Source: an uncultured Neglectibacter sp. (GTDB lineage Bacteria; Bacillota; Clostridia; Oscillospirales; Acutalibacteraceae). Taken from it: a DNA stretch of 63,374 nt. Each line of letters begins with the position of its first letter. The first letter of the stretch is position 1. Of this stretch, positions 24,252-24,502 are shown piece by piece. The stretch spans positions 1-63,374 of the forward strand of contig CANSKS010000010.1 of NCBI GenBank assembly GCA_947647615.1. The letters run 5' to 3'. The translations under genes were made by a program, and so were the position numbers. Below the pieces are notes generated by a model, which saw only the letters and a list, made by a program, of their open reading frames with translations, searched no databases and had not been told where the DNA came from.

Positions 24252-24280
24252 TTGCAATCACTGCCCATATGGGATATAAT
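24252..24280 (+). promoter_or_regulatory. Promoter P1 upstream of the CAAG leader frame
   Basis: TTGCAA (24252-24257), 17-base spacer, TATAAT (24275-24280). The start is near 24287, upstream of the leader frame's ATG at 24314, so this transcript would include the whole frame. Confidence 0.65.
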
Positions 24281-24301
24281 GAAAAAAATTGGAAAAAAGG
24301 G

Positions 24302-24330
24302 TTGACAAGCCGCATGCTGTGCCGTATAGT
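24302..24330 (+). promoter_or_regulatory. Promoter P2 abutting the CAAG repeat
   Basis: TTGACA (24302-24307), 17-base spacer, TATAGT (24325-24330). The predicted start near 24337 falls inside the repeat, so this transcript would lack the leader start codon but keep the terminator hairpin. Confidence 0.55.
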
Positions 24331-24502
24331 TCAAGCAAGCAAGCAAGCAAGCAAGCAAGCAAGCAAGCAAGCAAGCAAGCAAGCAAGCATAGCTAATTTT
24401 AGCTGTGCCGGTTCGTTATACCTAAATTTGCAAAAGCGGCGCACTCTGCCTTTGGGCGGGGTGCGTTTTTTGCGTCCAAAATCAAAGGAGGAGCTAGAAT
24501 GA
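24314..24502 (+). CDS. Leader reading frame through (CAAG)14 that overlaps the surface-protein start
   Basis: ATG at 24314, in a transcript from P1, opens a 62-codon frame: MLCRIV, then QASK-type repeats encoded by CAAG, then a basic tail ending KSKEELE. Its TGA (24500-24502) overlaps the next ATG (24499) as ATGA. AAAAAAGGG lies about 12 bases upstream of the ATG, so the ribosome site is weak. Of the three frames leaving the repeat only this one stays open: the others meet TAG at 24390 or TAA at 24394. The terminator hairpin lies inside it. It is probably regulatory rather than a functional peptide; translation is unproven. Confidence 0.45.
   Translation: MLCRIVQASKQASKQASKQASKQASIANFSCAGSLYLNLQKRRTLPLGGVRFLRPKSKEELE
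24332..24387 (+). repeat. Tetranucleotide microsatellite (CAAG)14
   Basis: Fourteen perfect CAAG units followed by CA. Such tracts gain and lose units by slipped-strand mispairing, and each change shifts the frame of anything translated across it. With 14 units the leader frame reaches the downstream start codon; 13 or 15 units would truncate it just after the tract. Confidence 0.95.
24440..24471 (+). terminator. Terminator-like hairpin in the surface-protein leader
   Basis: CGCAC (24440-24444) pairs with GTGCG (24461-24465), with an inner GCC/GGC stem, followed by TTTTTT (24466-24471). It lies upstream of the gene's own ribosome site, hence acts as an attenuator rather than an end-of-operon signal. 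Confidence 0.7.

Follow-up and report, generated by a model that had tools for sequence, protein, structure and literature searches.

A repeat-containing leader with an internal transcription terminator probably controls random ON/OFF switching of a surface-protein gene in an uncultured Neglectibacter sp.

In attenuation of the pyrBI type, translation into a hairpin prevents termination, under the control of nucleotide supply and pausing. Repeats act on expression in other ways at nadA, through the spacing of regulator sites, and at uspA2 of Moraxella, through effects of the untranslated leader, neither of which is known to depend on reading frame. In Neisseria meningitidis, according to the portion of the source available to us, the nadA repeats lie outside the coding region and alter expression (PMC2791445). 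For Haemophilus influenzae and Neisseria gonorrhoeae, the available parts of two reports describe phase-variable loci with CAAG repeats whose unit number varies among strains, and H. influenzae F3031 is reported to carry a (CAAG)32 tract 58 bp upstream of a methylase gene (PMC2651432, PMC5320596). The closest described system is pil1 of S. gallolyticus, in which GCAGA repeats in a leader gene decide whether translation reaches and destabilizes a premature terminator (Danne et al. 2014, PMC3894217). As far as the accessible text of that report goes, the evidence comprised chloramphenicol as well as terminator, start-codon and stop mutants, and pil3 variants obeyed the pil1 rule (PMC3894217). 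An earlier note on the DNA studied here had regarded control of a terminator by repeats in a leader peptide as unusual in kind; this view did not hold, since the accessible text of the 2014 paper shows such a mechanism for pil1, with matching variants at pil3 (PMC3894217).

The window analyzed here, a stretch of 63,374 nucleotides, was found to contain a comparable leader upstream of a surface-protein gene, the features of which are collected in Table 1. Its strongest tandem array, detected by TRF, was CAAG in 14.5 copies (24332-24389, 100% matches, score 116), the next array scoring 42. The leader product, MLCRIVQASKQ...EELE*, was free of internal stops, and its last codon was the TGA of an ATGA whose ATG (24499-24501) starts the surface gene. 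In the two other frames, translation past the tract would meet TAG (24390-24392) or TAA (24394-24396), 5 and 9 nt after the tract. Relative to the tract, the stops thus lay at +5 and +9 versus +115, with the hairpin spanning +51 to +79, and frame analysis indicated that unit number shifts the leader stop from well before the hairpin to at or past it. Because the leader frame is open and the two other frames stop early, the ON state would be expected at 2 modulo 3 units (11, 14, 17). The terminator, with a stem at 24438-24467 and a T run at 24466-24471, had a fold energy of -21.7 kcal/mol (mean of 20 shuffles, -6.0), and the post-tract leader folded with a z of -4.12. In common with pil1-type attenuators, the locus has a leader gene that encloses short tandem repeats and possesses an ATG and a ribosome site, albeit a weak one in the window, as well as an intrinsic terminator between the repeats and the gene. 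The leader frame running to the ATGA overlap, the closure of the other frames, the ON series that follows from them, the terminator inside the frame, the weak ribosome site and a second promoter, P2, had all been described in the earlier note, and each was borne out by repeat finding, translation, inspection of the sequence, consensus matching or fold energy, P2 being a near-perfect match to the sigma-70 consensus.

Table 1. Positions of the leader, promoter and gene features within the window.
Feature	Position	Strand	Basis
Promoter P1, TTGCAA-17-TATAAT, predicted to drive transcription through the full leader frame	24252..24280	+	Consensus, 10/12
Weak Shine-Dalgarno-like AAAGGG of the leader	24296..24301	+	Sequence; 12 nt before ATG by hand count
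Promoter-like P2, TTGACA-17-TATAGT, overlapping the leader start codon	24302..24330	+	Consensus, 11/12
62-codon leader frame spanning tract and terminator, ending in ATGA	24314..24502	+	Translation
(CAAG)14 tract, perfect units	24332..24387	+	TRF
Small hairpin CAUAGCUA-AUUU-UAGCUGUG containing both OFF-frame stop codons	24388..24407	+	RNA fold
Intrinsic terminator within the leader frame	24438..24471	+	Consensus, fold energy
Shine-Dalgarno AAAGGAGG of the surface-protein gene	24484..24491	+	Sequence
Surface-protein gene, 552 aa, signal peptide-like N-terminus (by eye), BspA-type LRR_5 and SLH domains	24499..26157	+	Domain search

On balance, we favor the reading that the tract is a phase-variable attenuator of the surface-protein gene, and from the anatomy of the leader we infer translation, termination, antitermination, coupling and switching as follows. 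RNA from P1 would carry the short leader gene with the CAAG tract. At 2 modulo 3 units, as with the 14 present here, the ribosome would cross the terminator hairpin, keep it from forming and finish at the ATGA, whereupon the surface gene would be transcribed and translated. At other unit numbers the ribosome would halt 5 or 9 nt past the tract, the hairpin would form and transcription would end. Slippage of the tract would shift cells between these states, so that the leader, as judged from its sequence, would probably switch the gene at random.

Several further elements were observed around the leader. A second copy of the terminator's 5' arm (AAAAGCGGCGCACTCTGCC), without the 3' arm, stands some 290 nt further upstream, at 24148-24170, ahead of P1, and is perhaps a relic of an earlier leader copy; zero-mismatch matches to the arm were confined to the leader itself, this partial copy and the paralogue. 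A search for known Rfam leaders gave a weak resemblance to the trpB ncRNA motif (RF04312), which was rejected at 28.0 bits against a gathering score of 59, and RF04312 was absent from 5 related loci up to an E value of 5. Likewise rejected were flanking inverted repeats as a paired operator of the nadA kind or as an RNA stem: those of L118 and L119 looked striking at first, whereas own pairs scored 6.59 versus 6.53 for swapped pairs over 46 loci (p 0.40). On the minus strand, a T-box-like leader (23796-24049; RF00230, 62.9 bits versus a gathering score of 93) precedes the gene upstream of the CAAG leader, and a cobalamin riboswitch lies at 60863-61099 (RF00174, 52.8 bits).

In the genome of origin (2.8 Mb, 94 contigs), CAAG tracts of at least 4 units were located at three places, namely the window, the end of contig C16 (L025) and the start of contig C63 (L026). 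At L025, the post-tract leader was near-identical to that of the window (94% over 100 nt) and was followed by a different SLH protein, and at L026, P1-like boxes, a Shine-Dalgarno-like sequence, an ATG and P2 stood ahead of the tract. Each of the two contigs breaks off within the repeat, in matching orientation, and together they may flank a single locus that the assembler could not bridge. Within the genus, tracts of at least 4 units were present in 11 of 29 genomes (16 tracts by hand count of the matches listed, all of which were inspected), and the reversed-control repeat in none of the 29. A terminator of -15.8 kcal/mol or better was found in all 15 genus loci with downstream DNA, and gene starts, which were assigned mechanically from the longest frame, lay at +104 to +114 nt in 13 of 14 genus loci and at +162 in L125. 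The downstream genes encoded SLH or other exported proteins at the window, L025, L126 and L124, proteins whose starts resemble LuxR/MalT-type regulators at L115-L123 (771-781 aa; 487 aa in L122; confirmed by Pfam for L118 and L120), and a TetR regulator at L125. Two promoter-side relatives, L142 (G010) and L153 (G021), had the repeat down to one or two units and are perhaps locked forms. The pair L115/L117 showed 97% identity before the tract and 73% after it, and L116/L207 showed 65% before it and 98% in the gene; such differing histories of the promoter and gene sides point to promoter or gene exchange, conceivably at the repeat.

The ATGA overlap of the window was shared by L025, L126 and L177. 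Such an overlap would also be expected if the ON frame served solely to bring to the ATGA the ribosomes that the surface gene needs, with the hairpin having no switching role, in an arrangement comparable to lex2A before lex2B. We regard this coupling-only reading as rather improbable: the gene in the window has its own AAAGGAGG, other loci were without the overlap, and terminators recur at unrelated genes far above shuffles: where the available DNA was long enough, 44 of 81 loci, near-duplicates among them, had one of -15 kcal/mol or better, versus 3.4 in shuffles. No terminator was found at L279 and L276, which counts against the attenuator.

To return to the attenuator, the leader gene was assessed statistically across loci. 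An in-frame open ATG preceded by a Shine-Dalgarno-like 4-mer was present in 11 of 12 dereplicated repeat-only loci, where 1.6 were expected and 0 of 500 shuffles reached 11. This set comprised 21 loci dereplicated at 80%, with L025 and L124 left out as being without upstream DNA; L268 and L269, 4-unit hits from the phylum sample, stand outside it, and counting both gives 11/14. The same combination occurred in 24 of 61 further ATAAT-anchored loci (4.9 expected, 0/200 shuffles), a weaker signal than in the repeat-only set, and an open ATG regardless of the Shine-Dalgarno sequence was common by chance (6.1/12 and 28/61 in shuffles). Frames stopping within 12 nt past the tract numbered 1.00 per locus over 65 loci versus 0.43 in 300 shuffles (maximum 0.60). 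In addition, the ON frame was kept up to the gene over 111 nt in the window, 111 nt in L025 and 114 nt in L126, despite several indels. A leader frame arising by accident was considered on account of the ATG lying in the P2 spacer and of the indel between the window and L025; it was ruled out by the compensating indels and by the enrichment of ATG with Shine-Dalgarno.

The region 24050-24560 contained three sigma-70-like sites, one of them on the minus strand, versus 0.4 in shuffles. P1-like boxes were seen at equal distance from the tract in L026 and L126, and P1 was moderately above chance, with a mean of 9.47/12 over 15 loci (not dereplicated) versus 7.62 in shuffles (maximum 8.53). To judge from the position of P2, its RNA would have the first CAAG unit at the 5' end and would not include the leader start; if P2 were dominant, the leader would be left untranslated, which would count against the attenuator. 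Unit number might then exert graded control from P2, the start lying inside the tract and the number of units setting the length or make-up of the RNA 5' end, and with it promoter escape, RNA stability or read-through, irrespective of frame. UspA2 expression in Moraxella changes with repeat length in an untranslated leader in a manner that would fit this proposal, as would the facts that P2 is nearer the consensus than P1 in the window (11/12 vs 10/12), that 11 of the 12 dereplicated loci carried it with at least 9/12 matches (0.44 expected), and that, as read by hand, all 14 genus loci for which upstream DNA was available had a -10-like box ending 1-7 nt ahead of the tract. Graded control nevertheless leaves unexplained the ATG with Shine-Dalgarno in 11/12 loci, the early off-frame stops and the frame kept despite indels, and we consider it unlikely. 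Since the ATG lies upstream of P2 in several proteobacterial loci (L166, L170, L196, L205, L210), P2 stays in position with respect to the tract whereas the ATG moves. P2 was also present at L276 and L279, whose repeat lies within the gene or adjoins it; among the matches listed, it was missing in Synergistota and nearly missing in Bacteroidota. Possible roles of P2 are a sigma-dependent pause aiding ribosome loading, more frequent slippage as the repeats are melted again and again, production of a decoy RNA, or an additional, graded input.

Variation in unit number was observed between near-identical alleles of relatives, the locus in the window itself being represented by a single sequence. 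L120 and L123 carried 22 and 8 units (upstream 100%, leader 100%, gene start 99.5% identical), and L118 and L119 carried 21 and 5 (99%, 100% and 98%), both pairs being ON/OFF; L122 and L096 carried 8 and 11 (100%, 99% and 97%) and were OFF/OFF. Counting of units across related genomes, which the earlier note had proposed as a check, thus yielded three varying pairs, two of them across the predicted ON/OFF boundary. Here, following pil1, a frame was scored as ON even when its stop lay within 4 nt before the hairpin. By this rule, the present unit numbers of all 42 loci with a leader ATG and a terminator gave 18 ON and 24 OFF, and by eye the genus tracts showed no modulo 3 preference, which fits the expectation for a switch. 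MalT-type leaders had one OFF and two ON frames, and SLH-type leaders (window, L126) one ON and two OFF. In 30 of the 36 distinct loci among these 42, at least one frame stopped 20 nt or more ahead of the hairpin and another reached it; because a random short linker often yields such a mix, this count is weak alone, and the weight therefore rests on the ATG, early-stop and terminator statistics.

A scan of GTDB with one genome per species for ATAAT followed by four units within 8 nt returned at least 110 stretches, where about 1 would be expected by our own arithmetic for random sequence of that size. Eighty loci among the matches listed, with some duplicates (e.g., L192/L226), were assigned to phyla by hand; their -10 boxes are present by selection, and only the -35 box, ATG and terminator are informative. 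In these listed loci, a -35 box of 5/6 or better was present in 29/36 from Bacillota, 19/24 from Proteobacteria, 0/8 from Synergistota, 1/11 from Bacteroidota and 1/1 from Spirochaetota. An open ATG no more than 60 nt away, which chance alone would provide at about half of the loci, occurred in 30, 16, 6, 11 and 1 of them, respectively. Terminators of -12 kcal/mol or better were found, in the same order and where enough DNA was available, in 18/24, 12/19, 1/8, 5/9 and 0/1; the Synergistota figure, like the weak Shine-Dalgarno sequence in the window, counts against the attenuator. Eight ATAAT-linked tracts among the matches listed came from Accumulibacter JAITNL (L166, L170, L188, L196, L205, L206, L210, L222) and four from Synergistaceae JAISRE (L176, L180, L189, L194). 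At L163, L276 and L279 the arrangement was the classical one, with the repeat inside the start of the gene or immediately ahead of it, and at L186:6468-7025 a CAAG tract was found immediately ahead of, or within, a type I restriction specificity gene (PF01420).

Forty downstream proteins, hand-picked from loci with a usable downstream frame and with the window protein counted apart, were scanned with Pfam and read by hand: 20 had an exported or surface-type domain, 12 had other domains and 8 were uninformative. The former included SLH, LRR_5, autotransporter, dockerin, beta-helix, Ig-like, C10 peptidase, TonB plug, pilin methylation and chemotaxis receptor domains, and the others LuxR/MalT, TetR, histidine kinase, acyltransferase, type I specificity subunit, radical SAM and HU-like domains.

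In even samples, prevalence was low, at 3/398 genomes for the phylum, 3/200 for the family and 10/394 for the order, as counted with a left-anchored pattern that misses tracts with an A three bases before the first unit. The three phylum genomes were the own genome and two with 4-unit hits that lacked the cassette (L268, L269), and the reversed control matched in one genome. This rarity outside the genus (2 of 397 other phylum-sample genomes, both 4-unit and without cassette, next to one reversed-control match) would fit an idle unstable tract, a slippage expansion in leader DNA that leaves the gene uncontrolled. The unit, its strand and its place relative to ATG and terminator are, however, constant at unrelated genes, and we hold the idle tract to be the least probable of the readings weighed here. 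The attenuation mechanism put forward in the earlier note was supported, in that the leader frame, early stops, terminator and unit variation recur at related and unrelated loci beyond shuffles.

A more far-reaching proposal, which we offer tentatively and judge unlikely as a whole, is that CAAG leaders constitute a widespread switch module that has arisen or spread in several phyla, with the leader start fused to a promoter starting at the first repeat. The nested promoter would then be a working part, either because a polymerase pause lets the ribosome load before the terminator or because melting of the repeat makes slippage more frequent and thereby determines how often the state switches. 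If true, one module would combine a switch with the setting of its own mutation rate before surface genes and regulators alike. More generally, if the loci work alike, repeat-switched attenuation would extend to other gut bacteria and to S-layer and BspA-like surface proteins, and regulators would also be switched, so that one slip could shift a regulon. Since unit number modulo 3 predicts ON or OFF for each strain, the phase state would be readable from genomes and testable in long-read metagenomes.

With regard to known systems, CAAG leaders would share with the pyrBI type the blocking of a hairpin by translation, although the latter is not known to be controlled by repeat number, and with nadA and uspA2 the influence on expression of repeats outside the coding region, which in those cases is not known to depend on frame. 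The H. influenzae and N. gonorrhoeae loci, compared by description only, have the same CAAG unit within or upstream of genes, and the available parts of their reports mention no leader terminator. No CAAG leaders of the pil1 kind, and no second proven system besides pil1 and pil3, were found in our searches of the open-licence literature, and a word search of the text available from a 2025 review of phase variation (PMC11868660) returned neither leader peptide, attenuation nor gallolyticus. To the extent of the accessible pil1 report, pil1 and the CAAG leaders alike have their repeats within a leader-peptide gene that starts at an ATG of its own, and a premature terminator separates the repeats from the surface-structure gene; in both the unit number decides whether the leader ends before the hairpin or extends to it; two of three frames are ON in pil1, as at the MalT-type CAAG loci. 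They differ in the repeat, a GCAGA pentanucleotide versus the CAAG tetranucleotide of the window, and in genes and taxa. The accessible pil1 text describes one start site upstream of the leader and mentions no promoter across the leader start, unlike P2 in the window, and the window leader frame, unlike that described for pil1, can run to the ATGA of the gene. The mechanism, which is likely to operate here, is known in kind, and what is new lies in the repeat unit, the nested promoter, taxa wider than those of pil1, and a gene range that takes in surface proteins together with LuxR/MalT and TetR regulators.
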